Under the pieces are notes generated by a model. It saw only the letters and a program-made list of their open reading frames with translations, was not told the origin of the DNA and did no database searches. The position numbers and the translations under genes were made by a program. A DNA stretch of 64,000 bases, from NCBI GenBank assembly GCA_016213775.1, contig JACQZR010000065.1, forward strand, positions 1-64,000, in the 5' to 3' direction. The stretch comes from Acidobacteriota bacterium (GTDB lineage: Bacteria; Acidobacteriota; Terriglobia; Bryobacterales; Bryobacteraceae). Shown one piece after another: positions 23,157 through 30,135 of the stretch; within the stretch, counting starts at the first letter, position 1, and each line of letters opens with the position of its first letter.

Positions 23157-26100
23157 ATGATCTACCCCGCTTCGTTCACACGAACCGGCGCGCGCGGACT
23201 TGCATGTCTGGCTGCGCTGACACTCCTCACGGTTGTAGCTTTGCCGGGGGCCGAAACATTCGACATGAAATCTTCCCAGAAGGGCAGTAGTCCTCTGGCC
23301 GGCAGTCAGAGGACGCAACTGCAGGAAGCGTTCGGAAAGCTGCCTCTGCGGTTTGAGCCGAACCGCGGGCAGGCCGAAAGCAAGACGCTGTTCCTTTCGC
23401 GCGGCCCTGGCTACAGGATGTCGTTCTCGCAAGCCGGCGCGGAGGTGGCGCTGACTTCGGGAAGCAAAGCCGCGCTTGTGCGGATGAACCTGCAAGGTTC
23501 CAGGAATAACGCGAAGGTGCAGCCGCTGGATGCGCTGCAAGGCGTTACCAACTACCTCATCGGTAACGATGAATCGCAATGGAAGACGGGCATTCCCGGG
23601 TTTGCGCGACTTCGCTATTCGGGTGTCTACTCCGGTATCGATGTCGATTACTACGGTTCACATCGAAGGTTGGAGTACGACTTTGTGGTAGCCCCCGGCG
23701 CCGATCCGAAGAAAATTCGTCTGCGCTTCGACGGCATCACAGGCCTACGTTTGGAAAACGGCGATCTGCTGTTGGACACCGCGGCGGGAACGCTCCGCCA
23801 GCACAAACCGGTGGTCTACCAGGACATAGACGGGCAGCGCCTAATGCGCGACGGCGCCTACGAAGTGCATGCGGACCGGACGGTGACGTTCGCGCTTGGC
23901 GCCTACGACCGCGACCGTACCCTAGTGATTGACCCGATCCTGTCGTATTCGACATTCTTTGGCGGTTTCGGCGCGGAAGTCGCCAACGGCATCGCTGTGG
24001 ATGCGACCAACAATGCCTACATCACGGGCTACACAACGTCGGGTAACATCTCGACAGCGGGCGCCGCGCAGACTGTGAGCGGCGGATTGACCGACGCGTT
24101 TGTTGCCAAGCTCGGAGCGGCGGGGAACAGCGTCGTCTATATCACGTACCTCGGCGGCAGCTCCGACGACTACGGTACTGCGATCGCTCTGGATAGTACG
24201 GGTGCGGCTTTTGTGACCGGGTTTACAACGTCAACCAACTTCCCCGCTGTCGCCGCGGCGCAGGGAGCGAACGGCGGCGGCACCGATGCCTTTGTGGCGC
24301 AGTTGAACGCCGCGGGGTCCGCGCTGGTGTACTCCACCTATCTCGGCGGAGCGGGTGAAGATCGCGGGACGGGAATCGGCGTCGATAGCACGAGCGCCGC
24401 TTACGTTTCCGGAGCCACAACGGCGGCGACCTTCCCCACCGTGAGCGGCATCCAGGGCTTCGGTGGCGGATCGCGCGACGCATTCGTCGTCAAGCTGTCG
24501 AACGCCGGCGCAGTCAACTTCTCCACCTTCCTTGGCGGCAACGGCGATGATGCCGCGACCTCCGTCGCGGTGAACGCCACTGGTGCGTACATCGCCGGCT
24601 ACACCGACTCTCCGAATTTTCCGACAGCGAATGCGATCCGCGCGACGCCGGTTGGACAGGTGGATGCCTTCCTCGTCAAAATGCCGCTGACAGGCGGCAG
24701 CATGACCTACTCGACATACCTTGGCGGTACGCTCGCGGACCGGGCGACTGCGGTAGCGGTGGATTCCACCGGCGCGGCGTATGTGGGGGGATGGACGTTC
24801 TCCACTGATTTTCCCGTTGCCAGCGCGCAGGCGGGCACGTTCCGCGGCGGCATCTACGACGGTTTCGTCAGCAAGGTGAACGCGGCTGGTTCGGCGCTTG
24901 TGTTCTCGACATACTACGGAGGGAACGGCGAGGACCTGGTTACCGGGATCGCTCTGGATTCCACCAACGCGCCGGTGATAGCGGGATACACTTCATCGAG
25001 CGATCTTCCGCTGGTTTCGTCTTCGCCCTCCTATTACAACGGGCTGAAGACTGGTGCGTTCGTCGGGCGCTATGCGGCTGACGGCGCCACGCTCACCTTC
25101 AGCACATACCTTGGCGGGAATGGGGGAGATCTGGCGAATTGCGTTGCCGCCGACGCCACCAACTCCATCTACACCGCCGGCACTACGGTGAGCACTACCT
25201 TCCCCACGTTGTCGGCCTTCAAGGCGACTCTGCAGGGCAGCAGCGATGCATTCGTCAGCAAGTTCGTGGACGGGACACCCGTCACCTTCACGGTGGATAC
25301 CAACCCGACCGGCCTGACGGTTATCGTCGATGGCGTCACCGCCTCGGCGCCGCGCTTCTTTGCGTGGGCTCCCGCCTCGGCGCACACTCTTGACACGCCT
25401 TCTCCGCAAGTGCTGGTCACCGGGACGCGCTACGCGTTCAGTTCCTGGAGCCAGGGCGGCACGCAGTCGCAAACGGTGACCGCGGGTACAAGCAGCGCCA
25501 GCTACACCGCCAACTTCACCACGCAGTATCTGCTCACGGTGAACAAAGTTCCAGGGGTGGGCGGCACTGTCGCGGTCTCGGCTCAGTCGAATGACAATTT
25601 CTACAGCGCCGGCACCAGCCTGGTCTTGACGGCGACTCCATCGAGCGGGTACGCATTCTCCGGTTTCAGCGGGGATGCGTCCGGCGCCTCACCGCTCACC
25701 GTCGTCATGTCGTCAGCGAAGACGATCACCGCGACGTTCGCCTGCAATTACAACCTGAGCGCCGGTGCGGCGACGTTTGAAGGCGGTGGCGCCAGCGGCA
25801 GTTTCAATATCACCACCGGCGGCACCTGTCCCTACACGGCCATCAGCGATGCGGCATGGTTGACCATTACTTCCGGCGGGGCCGGTCCCGGGTCCAACAC
25901 GGTGAACTACCAGCTCGCCGCAAACCCGGGCAACACCTCGCGTACGGGAACCATCTCCATCCTCACGGGATCGAGCATTCTCACGCACACCGTGACGCAG
26001 GGCCCGATCCCGCCTTCTTCCATCACCATCACTACCATACCCGCGGGCCTGCAAGTGTTGGTGAACGGAACCGCAACGCAGACACCGACGAACGTGCAAC

Positions 26101-27323
26101 TGCCGGCGGGAACGCAGGTCAGCATCGGCGCTGTCGCGATCCAGGGTGACGCGAATACACGCTACGTTTTCGCCAATTGGTCGGACGGCGGAGCACAGAC
26201 GCACACCGTGACTGTTCCGGGCACGGGTTCTCTGTCAGTGACTGCGAATTACATCACGCAGTTCAAGTTGAATCTCTTGAGCTCGCCTTCGGGCAGCGGC
26301 ACATTCACAACCGTGCCTGCTTCGCCGGACGGATTCTTTGCTCCCAACACGGTGGTCCAGGTGACAGCGGTGCCGGCTACGGGAGCGGTGTTCAACGGGT
26401 TCACCGGAGCACTTAGCGGAACCACCAATCCGCAGGCGCTGACGCTGTTGGCCCCCTCGACAGTAACCGCGCTGTTCACACCCATGACTTGCGGTTCGGC
26501 GTACGCACTGAATCCACAGACCTTCACGGTACCGCCTGAAGGGGGAACCTCCACGGCCAACATCGTGACCAATACCGGCTGCTTCTGGCAAGCCTCGCTT
26601 TCGAACTTCTTCATCACGCCGTTCGTGACGTTGAACGGAGCAACGCAAGGCGCCGGAAACGGAAGCATCAGCTTCACTCTCGCCCCCAACGGCAGCGCCA
26701 ATCCCCGCACCGCGTCCATCAACGTGCAGGGCCAGTTGGTGCAGATCCTGCAGAAGGGTGTGAACACGCCGCAGCCTTACGGCGACGTGCCGGCTTCGCA
26801 CATCTTCTCCGATTACATCTACCTCGCTGGTTTGTTCGGCGAAATGACCGGATGTGGAAGCGGCAACTTCTGCCCCGATACGGTAACCACTCGCGCCAGG
26901 ATGGCGGAGTTCGTCATCAAGGCGAAGTTGGGGAATGATTTTCCGTACAACACGACGCCGTTCTTCACCGACGTGCCCAACACGCATCCGCAGTTCGCCT
27001 ACATCCAGAAGATGCGCGAACTGTCGATCACCACTGGTTGCTCGGCGACGCAGTACTGCCCGGACAGCCCGGTGACTCGCGGCGAAATCTCGGTCTTCCT
27101 GATCAGAGGGAAACTGAACGTCGTCAACGCGACCGAGTTCACTTACAACCCGACCGGCTACTTTACCGACATGCCGTCGACGGATTCCTTCTTCCCCTTC
27201 GTCCAGAAGATGAAGGATCTGGGAATCACTGCCGGCTGCTCGACGACAACCTTCTGTCCCACGGATGCAAATACGTGGGGGCAGATTTCGGTATTCCTGA
27301 TCCGCAGTTTCAACACTCCGTAG
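23157..27323 (+). CDS. large exported SBBP-repeat / BACON / SLH-like surface protein
   Basis: A 1388-residue secreted protein built of several modules. After a signal peptide (about residues 1-35) comes a DUF7948-like domain starting LRFEPNRGQAE, then seven SBBP beta-propeller repeats (roughly residues 263-703), each with an STYLGG-type strand. PEGA-like and divergent-repeat domains (TVIVDGVTASAP...; SPSSGYAFSGFSGDASG) follow, with BACON-like domains (WLTITSGGAGPGSNTVNYQL and FFITPFVTLNG). Three SLH-like repeats end the protein (CPDTVTTRARMAEFV, CPDSPVTRGEISVFLI, CPTDANTWGQISVFLI). The function is probably surface binding or adhesion. AAGGAG lies eleven bases upstream of the ATG, and a strong terminator follows the stop. 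Confidence 0.88.
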   Translation: MIYPASFTRTGARGLACLAALTLLTVVALPGAETFDMKSSQKGSSPLAGSQRTQLQEAFGKLPLRFEPNRGQAESKTLFLSRGPGYRMSFSQAGAEVALTSGSKAALVRMNLQGSRNNAKVQPLDALQGVTNYLIGNDESQWKTGIPGFARLRYSGVYSGIDVDYYGSHRRLEYDFVVAPGADPKKIRLRFDGITGLRLENGDLLLDTAAGTLRQHKPVVYQDIDGQRLMRDGAYEVHADRTVTFALGAYDRDRTLVIDPILSYSTFFGGFGAEVANGIAVDATNNAYITGYTTSGNISTAGAAQTVSGGLTDAFVAKLGAAGNSVVYITYLGGSSDDYGTAIALDSTGAAFVTGFTTSTNFPAVAAAQGANGGGTDAFVAQLNAAGSALVYSTYLGGAGEDRGTGIGVDSTSAAYVSGATTAATFPTVSGIQGFGGGSRDAFVVKLSNAGAVNFSTFLGGNGDDAATSVAVNATGAYIAGYTDSPNFPTANAIRATPVGQVDAFLVKMPLTGGSMTYSTYLGGTLADRATAVAVDSTGAAYVGGWTFSTDFPVASAQAGTFRGGIYDGFVSKVNAAGSALVFSTYYGGNGEDLVTGIALDSTNAPVIAGYTSSSDLPLVSSSPSYYNGLKTGAFVGRYAADGATLTFSTYLGGNGGDLANCVAADATNSIYTAGTTVSTTFPTLSAFKATLQGSSDAFVSKFVDGTPVTFTVDTNPTGLTVIVDGVTASAPRFFAWAPASAHTLDTPSPQVLVTGTRYAFSSWSQGGTQSQTVTAGTSSASYTANFTTQYLLTVNKVPGVGGTVAVSAQSNDNFYSAGTSLVLTATPSSGYAFSGFSGDASGASPLTVVMSSAKTITATFACNYNLSAGAATFEGGGASGSFNITTGGTCPYTAISDAAWLTITSGGAGPGSNTVNYQLAANPGNTSRTGTISILTGSSILTHTVTQGPIPPSSITITTIPAGLQVLVNGTATQTPTNVQLPAGTQVSIGAVAIQGDANTRYVFANWSDGGAQTHTVTVPGTGSLSVTANYITQFKLNLLSSPSGSGTFTTVPASPDGFFAPNTVVQVTAVPATGAVFNGFTGALSGTTNPQALTLLAPSTVTALFTPMTCGSAYALNPQTFTVPPEGGTSTANIVTNTGCFWQASLSNFFITPFVTLNGATQGAGNGSISFTLAPNGSANPRTASINVQGQLVQILQKGVNTPQPYGDVPASHIFSDYIYLAGLFGEMTGCGSGNFCPDTVTTRARMAEFVIKAKLGNDFPYNTTPFFTDVPNTHPQFAYIQKMRELSITTGCSATQYCPDSPVTRGEISVFLIRGKLNVVNATEFTYNPTGYFTDMPSTDSFFPFVQKMKDLGITAGCSTTTFCPTDANTWGQISVFLIRSFNTP
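23945..25266 (+). repeat. seven SBBP-type repeats inside the surface-protein gene
   Basis: Seven units of about 55-66 codons each begin with a strand such as YSTFFGG, ITYLGG, YSTYLGG (twice), FSTFLGG, FSTYYGG and FSTYLGG, and continue with an acidic loop and an AYxxGxT element. They should fold as a beta propeller. The units have diverged at DNA level, so this is an old coding repeat and not a recent tandem expansion. Confidence 0.85.
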
Positions 27324-27346: not shown

Positions 27347-27380
27347 AAAGGCCTCGGGGTTCGCGCCCCGGGGCCTTTGT
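27347..27380 (+). terminator. strong rho-independent terminator after the surface-protein gene
   Basis: AAAGGCCTCGGGG at 27347-27359 pairs over 13 positions (one G-T) with CCCCGGGGCCTTT at 27366-27378 around a six-base loop. The T-rich GTCTTTG follows. The hairpin is symmetric enough to stop transcription from the convergent methyltransferase gene as well. Confidence 0.85.
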
Positions 27381-27441: not shown

Positions 27442-28440
27442 CTACGCGCCGTTGTTGACGAGGGCCAGCAACGAAAGCTGCATGCTCGGATGGATCTCCT
27501 CGGAGCCCTGGGACAATCGCTCCATCAGCGCCTTCACCTCGTGCTCCGGCCATTCCTCCAAAAAGCGGAGCGCGGAGAGTTCGGCGTATGCGCGGTCAAG
27601 TTCGATGCTGAGCCACCGCCGCCCGAGGTTCTCGGCGACGGCTCCTGTTGTGTTTGAACCGGAGAAAATGTCGAGGACGAGATCACCGGGTTCAGTTAGG
27701 AAGTTGACGAAGAATTTGGGGAGATCCGCCGGAAACCGAGCCGGGTGTGATTCCCGCCCAAGCGCTTTGCACATTCGAAGATAGTGCGAATTGCTATCGG
27801 TGTTCGGAATCTGAAGCAGATTCGGCGGAATCGCTCCCCCATTCTCCTTTCCGAAAGCGGCTGCAATGTCGTGGCCGGAAGGCCTCCCTTTGGGCCGGTA
27901 AAACTTCTCAGGGTCTTTGAGCAGCGTCTTCATCCGCTCCGAGTAGGGAGCGAGGACCCTGGTCACGTCGGCCTTGGGCCACTCGGTCTTTGAAAACCAC
28001 CAAACGGTATTTACCGAATCCTTGACGCGGATCTTCCGTTTGTTCACCCATTCGATCGGGGAAGGAAGTTTTGCGGGATTGTGCCAGTAGAACTCTTCCG
28101 CGAGAAAGTAGCCGGGTTTCTCGCAGAACTCGATCAGGACCTTGAAATTGTATAGAGAGCGAACGGGCACTCCGCGCTGGTAGGCCCCGCCGAGATCGAG
28201 CACGAAGCTGCCGGTGTCCTTGAGAGTTCGCTTGGCTACGTTGCCGAACTCCAACAGCCATTCGACGTAGTCTTCCTGCTCTTCGTTCCCATAGGACTTC
28301 TTCCTGAGAAGTGCAAAAGTCGGGCTCGTGACAATAAGATCAACCGACTCGTCAGGAAGTTGAGCGAGCACCTGGCGGCTGTCTGCGCAGAGCTGTCTCC
28401 CGAGCGCTGTTCGATAGACTTCGATTGAGGTCTCAGCCAC
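27442..28440 (-). CDS. beta-class DNA methyltransferase, probably cytosine-N4
   Basis: A 332-residue S-adenosylmethionine-dependent DNA methyltransferase. The catalytic motif IV comes first (VTSPTFALLRKKSYGN, residues 37-52) and the cofactor motif I comes near the C-terminus (LVLDIFSGSNTTGAVAE, residues 254-270), the beta-class order. The FALLRKK.YGN tail after motif IV is like PvuII-type cytosine-N4 enzymes. The usual SPPF is SPTF here, with Thr41 replacing the second Pro. The GTG start at 28440 overlaps the stop of the upstream HEAT-repeat gene by 8 bases, so the two are coupled and likely form one restriction-modification unit. Recognition sequence unknown. Confidence 0.88.
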   Translation of the reverse strand: MAETSIEVYRTALGRQLCADSRQVLAQLPDESVDLIVTSPTFALLRKKSYGNEEQEDYVEWLLEFGNVAKRTLKDTGSFVLDLGGAYQRGVPVRSLYNFKVLIEFCEKPGYFLAEEFYWHNPAKLPSPIEWVNKRKIRVKDSVNTVWWFSKTEWPKADVTRVLAPYSERMKTLLKDPEKFYRPKGRPSGHDIAAAFGKENGGAIPPNLLQIPNTDSNSHYLRMCKALGRESHPARFPADLPKFFVNFLTEPGDLVLDIFSGSNTTGAVAENLGRRWLSIELDRAYAELSALRFLEEWPEHEVKALMERLSQGSEEIHPSMQLSLLALVNNGA

Positions 28441-29956
28441 GAGGGTATTCCGCTCCGGGCGAAAGTTCCCACCGTCTCGCCACCCAACTTTCTGTAAACG
28501 ACCATAGGAGAGTCAGGGCGAAATGCAAGCCCGGCGCTTGATCCTGAAGCTGAGCGATGTAGGGACCGGCATGGTGCCGAGGAAGGTTTCCAAGCAGCCA
28601 AACTGCCCAGGGTGACGGTTCGGGCCGACGGAGAAGCTGAACTGCCTCCTCGATGGTCCCCTCGGGAAGTGCACGGCGGCGAAGTGCCTCGGCGCGACCG
28701 GCAGCGATGGAGGAGTCCAGATCGCCGAGTCCGGCCATGAGAACGGTGGTTGCGTCAGCGCCGATCATCGCGATTCCCTCAAGAGCCTCATCCCTTATCT
28801 TCTCATCGACGTCGCGGAAAGTCCGCACGAGTTGCGCGGCGGACTCGGCGTCCCCCGCTTGCCCCAGGCACCAGGCGGCGGCGCTGCGCATGAAGTACGG
28901 CTGAGACGCGTCCTGGAGAATCCGCGAGAGCACCGAAACCGCGCCAGCCGACTTCGCCTCACCCAAAGCGATCACTGCTTCGAGCCGGCGCTGATCGTCG
29001 GCGCTCTCGAGGTACGGCGCAAAGACTCGCTCCGGCTCCTGATTCGCGAAGCGAACGAGGTACGCCGCGGCTTCCAGCCGGATGTAGACATCTTCCTCGG
29101 TGTCTGCTTCGAGATTCTTGATCAAGTCCGAGACGGTGGCGCATTGGTTCAAGCGGCAGAGCTTTACCCCCGTGAACCGCTGCGTGCGCTCTCGGGACTC
29201 AAGCAGAGACAGGAGATGGGCAGTAGAGATTGACGCCGCACACTTCAAATCTGTGGAAGGCTGAACAGCAGCGGCGAGTAATTGGTTCACTTGGACCTGT
29301 TGGCCTTCGGCCACGACTGCGCGTGCGCCGTCGCGAATCTTCAGCGACCGGCGAGAGCCTGTCGGAGGCTTCACCATGATCCGGTCTCCTTGGATCGACT
29401 CGACCACGCCGTTCGTCGTGGCGAACAGCGCGGGCCACGAGATGGTCATCTCCGAGCCCTCGGTGACGCCCTTGGGCTGCTCCTTTCGGAACGGAACCAC
29501 GCGGAACTCACCTGTCCCGATGTAGTTGATAAACGGCTTTGCTTCCCAGCGAACCCAGTTCCGCTCGTGCCAGTAGGAGACGCCTTGCTGGAGCCTGCCC
29601 GTTGACCAAGAGGTTTCGTCCTTCGGCTGGCAAACGGGAAAGGCGATGAGGTCGGAATCGACCATGCCGTAGCTCCAGGCTCGTTCCTCCTCGTCGCTGT
29701 GCGACATCGAGAGTTTGGCGTCGGTCTTGGCGCGACTTTCGATGCGGAGACCGCAACGAGAGCAAACGAGATCCGGGATGCGAACGCGCTTCCGTTTGAC
29801 CTCCTTCCAGATCTTTGTGTCGAGCGACCCGCGCTCCAATTCATGAACCACATGGCCGTGTTGGGCGAGGTCTTTGCTGATCGCCTGAGTACCGACGGCA
29901 CCGATGGCGATCTTGCGGAAGAAGCTGGAATCCGGCTTGAATGATAGTCGCGGCAT
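28433..29956 (-). CDS. HEAT-repeat protein with nuclease-like N-terminus, candidate restriction endonuclease
   Basis: A 507-residue protein not assignable to a characterised family. Residues about 1-110 hold RIPDLVCSRCGLRIESRAKTD (Pro61-Asp62 ... Glu73 ... Lys77) and then MSHSDEEERAWSYGMVDSDLIAF, which resembles a PD-(D/E)xK nuclease core with an embedded CxxC; the Glu-to-Lys spacing is one or two residues longer than canonical. Residues about 170-235 look like a small beta domain. Residues about 285-440 form HEAT/PBS-lyase-like helical repeats (IRLEAAAYLVRF, QRRLEAVIALGEAKSAGAV, MRSAAAWCLGQAGDAESAAQL, IRDEALEGIAMIGADAT). I start at the ATG at 29956; the reading frame open to 30292 runs antisense into the next gene. 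It is directly coupled to a DNA methyltransferase, the main support for a restriction role. Confidence 0.6.
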   Translation of the reverse strand: MPRLSFKPDSSFFRKIAIGAVGTQAISKDLAQHGHVVHELERGSLDTKIWKEVKRKRVRIPDLVCSRCGLRIESRAKTDAKLSMSHSDEEERAWSYGMVDSDLIAFPVCQPKDETSWSTGRLQQGVSYWHERNWVRWEAKPFINYIGTGEFRVVPFRKEQPKGVTEGSEMTISWPALFATTNGVVESIQGDRIMVKPPTGSRRSLKIRDGARAVVAEGQQVQVNQLLAAAVQPSTDLKCAASISTAHLLSLLESRERTQRFTGVKLCRLNQCATVSDLIKNLEADTEEDVYIRLEAAAYLVRFANQEPERVFAPYLESADDQRRLEAVIALGEAKSAGAVSVLSRILQDASQPYFMRSAAAWCLGQAGDAESAAQLVRTFRDVDEKIRDEALEGIAMIGADATTVLMAGLGDLDSSIAAGRAEALRRRALPEGTIEEAVQLLRRPEPSPWAVWLLGNLPRHHAGPYIAQLQDQAPGLHFALTLLWSFTESWVARRWELSPGAEYPRG

Positions 29957-30071
29957 GGAGGGCGTAAGGAACCCCTTATTGTCCCGTGTTCGGCGGACTG
30001 GTACAAGGCGATTCCAATCGGCTATAGCCCAAACACCGGTGGCGATCAAAGAAGATCGGGCGTGGCGCGAA

Positions 30072-30107
30072 ACAAAAAAGAAACAGGCCGCCCGGTGAGA
30101 GCGGCCT
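30072..30107 (-). terminator. rho-independent terminator of the Gfo/Idh/MocA gene
   Basis: On the minus strand AGGCCGC (30107-30101) pairs with GCGGCCT (30091-30085) around a nine-base loop, and the 3' side runs GTTTCTTTTTTG. It lies just after the stop of the oxidoreductase gene at 30136 and upstream of the nuclease-methyltransferase pair, so the latter should have its own promoter in 29957-30070. Confidence 0.75.
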
Positions 30108-30135
30108 CCATAGTGATATCGAACGTGATCTGGAA

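Follow-up and report, generated by a model that had tools for sequence, protein, structure and literature searches.

The PvuII restriction–modification system of the Proteus vulgaris plasmid pPvu1 joins two enzymes at one sequence: M.PvuII places N4-methylcytosine in CAGCTG, and unmethylated copies of this site are cut by R.PvuII (PMC2997769). The locus described here lies within a 64-kb stretch of Acidobacteriota DNA that was analysed at its full length (the window). It resembles the PvuII system in that the restriction (R) and modification (M) genes are separate and the methyltransferase is homologous over its full length. It differs in three respects: the two genes are co-directional and overlapping with R first, whereas in pPvu1 they are divergent; the C regulator gene is absent; and the methyltransferase is partnered by a protein with HEAT repeats, called here the HEAT-nuclease, in which no similarity to R.PvuII (157 aa) could be detected. 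We consider it highly probable that the pair is a two-gene Type II restriction–modification system, with CAGCTG protected by the methyltransferase and DNA that lacks this protection cut by the HEAT-nuclease.

The gene pair and its methyltransferase

On the minus strand, the gene for the 507-aa HEAT-nuclease, a candidate restriction enzyme, is followed by the gene for the 332-aa methyltransferase (Table 1). The coordinates, lengths and 8-base overlap given in the original prediction, which had been made from the sequence alone, were exact. The operon promoter must sit in the 179-base region upstream of the nuclease gene. The flanking terminators of the original prediction are present as hairpins, but a scan found terminator-like sites no more commonly than in shuffled sequence (3 versus 3.7). 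As judged by eye, the upstream neighbour, which has the same orientation and is separated by those 179 bases, is an oxidoreductase-like gene, and the convergent gene downstream (23157–27323) encodes a predicted secreted protein of 1388 aa that has beta-propeller-type repeats and ends in an S-layer-like region.

Table 1. Features of the locus, in window coordinates.
Feature	Position	Strand	Basis
Candidate restriction endonuclease, 507 aa, first of the pair	28433..29956	-	ORF; 22-sequence family alignment; M.PvuII homologue always adjoining
Predicted PD-(D/E)xK nuclease domain, residues 1–172; putative catalytic D62, E73, K77; R75 also conserved	29441..29956	-	AlphaFold2 model; VIA-align against PDB; residue conservation
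Barrel-sandwich-hybrid domain of RNA polymerase beta/beta' type, residues 175–230	29267..29434	-	VIA-align to RpoB; hmmsearch to RpoC
HEAT-repeat solenoid, residues 244–495	28472..29227	-	Pfam HEAT_2 2.1e-19; AlphaFold2 pLDDT 83; alphaRep/HEAT matches
Beta-class amino-methyltransferase, M.PvuII homologue, 332 aa, GTG start	27442..28440	-	phmmer 1boo 8.7e-131; PADLOC MTase_II 5.6e-153
Methyltransferase motif IV, TSPTF, residues 38–42	28315..28329	-	TSPPF in all 21 aligned relatives
8-base overlap of methyltransferase and nuclease genes, GTGGCTGA	28433..28440	-	Sequence
GC-rich hairpin (27356–27377) between convergent genes, probable shared terminator	27352..27379	.	Sequence; terminator scan
Intergenic region, 179 bases, upstream of nuclease gene	29957..30135	-	Sequence
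Hairpin of upstream gene	30107-30085		Terminator scan

The methyltransferase matches Pfam N6_N4_Mtase (6e-41) and the PADLOC model MTase_II (5.6e-153), and its homology to M.PvuII extends over the full length of the protein (phmmer, structure 1boo, 8.7e-131). These matches bear out the beta-class methyltransferase that had been called from the sequence, although the call had missed the relationship to PvuII, the likely CAGCTG site, the unusual motif IV and the RNA polymerase-like middle domain of the partner. Motif IV precedes motif I, which is the motif order of a beta-class amino-methyltransferase (m4C). Because the homology to M.PvuII is full length, the product is likely to be m4C on CAGCTG.

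Motif IV of the window methyltransferase departs from the canonical SPP(F/Y/W): it reads SPTF, whereas all aligned relatives have SPPF, and the substitution (P41T) is unique to this copy among 22 aligned methyltransferases. It is one of two otherwise uniform methyltransferase columns at which the window alone differs. P41T is a change of a single codon; it could make the enzyme less active, or it could have arisen in assembly. The window copy might be decaying or altered, with P41T disabling or weakening the methyltransferase and the restriction gene silent, or tolerated because the genome has hardly any CAGCTG sites. We regard this as possible but doubtful for the individual copy, and it is compatible with our reading of the family. 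The uniqueness of SPTF, the scarcity of CAGCTG in the host genome and its lack in the window, and the decayed copies found in relatives (see below) all speak for decay; yet both frames are full length, the restriction protein shows no deviation at otherwise invariant positions, and SPTF may still function or reflect a one-base assembly error.

Predicted domains of the HEAT-nuclease

The Pfam, NCBIfam, PADLOC and PHROGs models recognised nothing in the family other than generic HEAT repeats; for the whole partner only these repeats were returned, and the nuclease domain found no family match by sequence. An AlphaFold2 model of the full-length protein was built with 22 family members (mean pLDDT 83). 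A Foldseek search with this model was swamped by HEAT proteins, so the N-terminal domain (residues 1–172) was folded alone with 23 family members (pLDDT 72). The first 19 Foldseek matches to the isolated domain were all Hjc- or RecU-type resolvases, with weak E-values. The best 50 VIA-align entries listed were, almost without exception, PD-(D/E)xK nucleases or proteins of closely related structure, including Hjc, I-Ssp6803I, HinP1I, Eco15I, DpnI, RecU, SPARDA and the PA endonuclease (Z 4.3–7.8), and the top match was Hjc (Z 7.8, 2.7 Å over 96 residues). Each single score lies below the VIA-align caution line of Z 8, and the weight of the comparison comes from the agreement across the list. R.PvuII was absent among the structural matches listed, which carries no weight by itself, and a profile comparison detected no similarity between R.PvuII and the N-terminal domain (hhalign probability 0.1). 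The model is evidence of moderate strength that residues 1–172 adopt the alpha–beta core of the PD-(D/E)xK superfamily; an alignment of this kind had been named in the original prediction as a check on its nuclease call.

The PD...E...K-like motif that had been noticed in the sequence is conserved beyond chance. In 34–35 relatives, D62 is present in 35/35, K77 in 34/34, E73 in 33/34 and R75 in 32/34. The position two residues after E73 is thus almost always R, with K in one relative and Q in a truncated copy, and the invariant lysine falls at E+4; together these features define a variant of the PD-(D/E)xK motif. D62 and E73 are 11 residues apart, and Asp53 and Glu64 of DpnI have the same spacing (PMC4117772). 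One Synechococcus bin carries an intact HEAT-nuclease together with a second, truncated copy in which E73D and R75Q are found. Of the CxxC, C68 is missing from one relative (present in 33 of 34). A match of residues 54–81 to an RpoC zinc ribbon-like element (E 0.4) was put down to chance because the second cysteine is not universal.

The layout described from the sequence is present: IPDLVCSRCGLRIESRAK lies close to the N terminus, and the protein has both the small beta domain and the HEAT repeats (HEAT_2). The small beta domain (residues 175–230) resembles the RNA polymerase-type barrel-sandwich hybrid in both fold and sequence: it superposes on the barrel-sandwich of RpoB at 1.1–1.2 Å over 56 residues with 29–32% identity (VIA-align), and a family profile of the partner finds RpoC at 1.2e-7 (hmmsearch). 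The C-terminal solenoid has alphaRep/HEAT proteins as its structural matches (Z up to 13.9), and no DNA-binding HEAT protein was prominent among them. The barrel-sandwich and HEAT parts are candidates for reading the DNA sequence, and the helical repeats may take part in DNA recognition, as the original prediction proposed.

Pairing with the methyltransferase and exchange of the restriction subunit

A scan of 84,980 species for relatives of the partner yielded 29 loci, and a phylum search added two further intact genomes. The bins are assigned to Acidobacteriota, Gemmatimonadota, Planctomycetota, Cyanobacteria, Armatimonadota, Verrucomicrobiota, Chloroflexi, Schekmanbacteria and Pseudomonadota, and the family is widespread among bacteria from soil, sponges and groundwater. 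Within the window's own family the pair is patchy, with the N-terminal domain in 3 of 237 genomes, and no relatives of the partner were found in the viral contigs or plasmids searched. In all 25 loci whose contig continues, an M.PvuII homologue lies directly downstream of the partner, while the remaining four of the 29 end at the contig edge; the same arrangement is seen in the two further genomes. This survey of neighbours was the second check attached to the original prediction, and its restriction–modification reading with a nuclease role is now supported by both the predicted fold and the obligate pairing with a methyltransferase. The gene junction in relatives is mostly a 4-base ATGA overlap, otherwise an overlap of 8 or 11 bases or a gap of 1–21 bases. 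R.PvuII was not found in the carrier loci by tblastn. Likewise, a C.PvuII-like controller gene was found in none of the carrier loci searched, but in all eight R.PvuII control loci.

The M.PvuII-type methyltransferases fall into a single clade (support 100/99), and each member adjoins either R.PvuII or a HEAT-nuclease, never both. Within the clade, the 26 methyltransferases with a HEAT-nuclease group together (99/93), as do the eight with R.PvuII (97/96); two loci, L064 and the divergent L043, whose partner is only 29% identical, are unplaced. The window methyltransferase is about 60% identical to those adjoining R.PvuII. One methyltransferase clade associated with two nucleases that have no profile similarity to each other indicates that the restriction subunit has been replaced, in either direction, and the clade-wide nature of the exchange suggests that the two nucleases do the same job. 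Pairwise distances of the R and M proteins are correlated (r=0.93, a value that none of 2000 Mantel permutations reached), and dN/dS values of 0.05–0.17 in both genes reflect purifying selection.

Decayed copies of the pair are also found. Three loci (L034, L036 and L037) have an open methyltransferase frame next to a nuclease gene that carries a frameshift or a partial deletion. In one genome (G225; L014/L015/L058) both genes are broken, the methyltransferase by an IS605-type insertion and the nuclease by a frameshift; its two sister species keep intact copies. Some of the frameshifts could be assembly errors. Remnants of the HEAT-nuclease, either fragments or truncated copies, occur in relatives at L003 (1501–1674; G046), L009 (1501–1584; G032), L042 (Synechococcus SB0668) and L229 (G559). 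At no locus examined was the methyltransferase disrupted and the nuclease intact. Such an asymmetry, with R lost and M kept, would be expected of a nuclease whose toxicity is held in check by the methyltransferase.

The order of decay also bears on whether the partner could instead be a nuclease resembling Vsr or MutH, or a Type IV-like one that senses methylation, and serve in repair or in mark-dependent cleavage at the sites of the methyltransferase itself. PD-(D/E)xK folds serve such roles, the methyl-dependent DpnI and RecU are among the structural matches, and mutation at methylated sites, rather than selection, could account for a loss of CAGCTG. However, a nuclease directed at methylated CAGCTG would kill its own host, and the loss of R with retention of M is the sequence of events expected of a restriction–modification system. 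Moreover, these methyltransferases have no R.PvuII left beside them, and the clade-wide exchange between R.PvuII and the HEAT-nuclease suggests a shared job. We therefore consider such a repair or methylation-dependent nuclease very improbable and retain the reading of the pair as a Type II system.

CAGCTG content of carrier genomes and the proposed system

Sites were counted in samples of 270–430 kb and by whole-genome pattern counts, with about 60 palindromes tested. Across 205 kb from 22 carrier loci in varied phyla, the most depleted palindrome was CAGCTG, with 4 seen against 99–107 expected, and the next-lowest observed/expected ratio in carrier contigs was 0.21–0.40. The window contains no CAGCTG (19 expected), and the 10.96-Mb host genome has 62, against 2918 copies of the reversed control GTCGAC. 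Densities below 30 CAGCTG per Mb were found in 18 of 26 carrier genomes, compared with 9 of the 77 relatives examined for the carrier G471 (Fisher p = 5.5e-8), a test that is confounded by descent. Scarcity extends to relatives of carriers: 19 of 36 members of the window's family without an intact system fall below this density, as do 38 of 79 relatives of the carrier G470 (a Pirellulales bin), but only 14 of 80 relatives of the carrier G472. Both G471 and G472 lie at the low end among relatives that are mostly not depleted. Conversely, carriers in a sponge-associated group and the carrier G051 are barely or not depleted, which fits recent acquisition.

Since non-carrier relatives are depleted too, the scarcity of CAGCTG is not creditable to this system alone. 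Depletion was accordingly downgraded as proof of specificity: it supports the site and does not prove it, and carriers may be hosts that tolerate the system through having few sites. R.PvuII was also considered as a cause of the scarcity in the window's family and set aside, as none was found in 61 relatives, a set that had no positive genome. In this family CAGCTG is scarce even where a close M.PvuII homologue is lacking, with exceptions such as G007 (2454 sites). In three genomes (G156, G183 and G225; L085–L144) several 6-base palindromes besides CAGCTG are strongly depleted (GTCGAC, ACGCGT, TTCGAA and CTCGAG), which suggests many active restriction systems.

The depletion common in non-carrier relatives of two lineages, together with the carriers that are not depleted, would also be explained if methyltransferase and nuclease shared a site other than CAGCTG and the scarcity had an unrelated, lineage-wide cause. 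We judge this unlikely because M.PvuII is covered in full by the methyltransferase, which is about 60% identical to those beside R.PvuII, and because, of all the palindromes tested, it is the PvuII site itself that carriers from many phyla lack most; in addition, G471 and G472 are at the low end of relatives that for the most part are not depleted.

CAGCTG thus remains our preferred site for the Type II system. In the proposed mechanism, the methyltransferase would place N4-methylcytosine on CAGCTG, and the N-terminal PD-(D/E)xK domain of the partner would cleave DNA with unmethylated CAGCTG, both the cleavage and its site being predictions. The RNA polymerase-type barrel-sandwich and the HEAT solenoid may help in DNA binding, recognition or dimerisation. 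The HEAT-nuclease would occupy the place that the unrelated small R.PvuII, with the C regulator, has beside the same kind of methyltransferase. The R-then-M order, the gene overlap and the lack of a controller gene imply that the order of expression on entry is set by other means. More specifically, but only tentatively, we propose that a PD-(D/E)xK domain guided to CAGCTG by the RNA polymerase-type domain and the HEAT solenoid replaced R.PvuII across many phyla; to our knowledge, sequence-specific DNA reading by such domains has no precedent in restriction enzymes.

With a modification methyltransferase gene and a separate, stably linked gene for a nuclease, recognised as such by its predicted fold, the system is of a known kind: Type II restriction–modification with a PvuII-type methyltransferase and a PD-(D/E)xK nuclease. 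As far as the searches show, the architecture and family of the restriction enzyme are undescribed in the literature and family libraries covered (REBASE lay outside the search), and since the available models recognise only its generic HEAT repeats, defence surveys will probably miss it or label its methyltransferase an orphan. The partner would be the first PvuII-site cutter known to us with HEAT repeats and an RNA polymerase-like domain.

Two systems from the same phylum, L048 (2517–3296) and L049 (654–1439), lie in genomes of the same class as the window and have M.PvuII-type methyltransferases 61–63% identical to its own, but there the helix–turn–helix of the C regulator is fused to a true R.PvuII domain, unlike the HEAT-nuclease. 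Hjc, HinP1I, Eco15I and DpnI resemble the model of residues 1–172 in fold (Z 6–7.8), and DpnI shares the D-x10-E spacing (PMC4117772). They differ in that the partner has no sequence-level match to them, has E-x-R-x-K in place of the canonical E-x-K, and has its nuclease domain fused to barrel-sandwich and HEAT parts. The barrel-sandwich is a single module within a nuclease, and not, as in RNA polymerase beta/beta', part of a polymerase. The C-terminal solenoid is similar to the designed alphaRep proteins, and HEAT-like repeats that hold DNA are found in the DNA glycosylase AlkD. If the proposed mechanism is true, the partner raises the testable question of how HEAT and RNA polymerase-like parts read DNA. 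Set beside the PvuII system, one methyltransferase family with two sequence-unrelated restriction enzymes, sorted by clade, shows cleanly how the toxic half of a restriction system can be exchanged.
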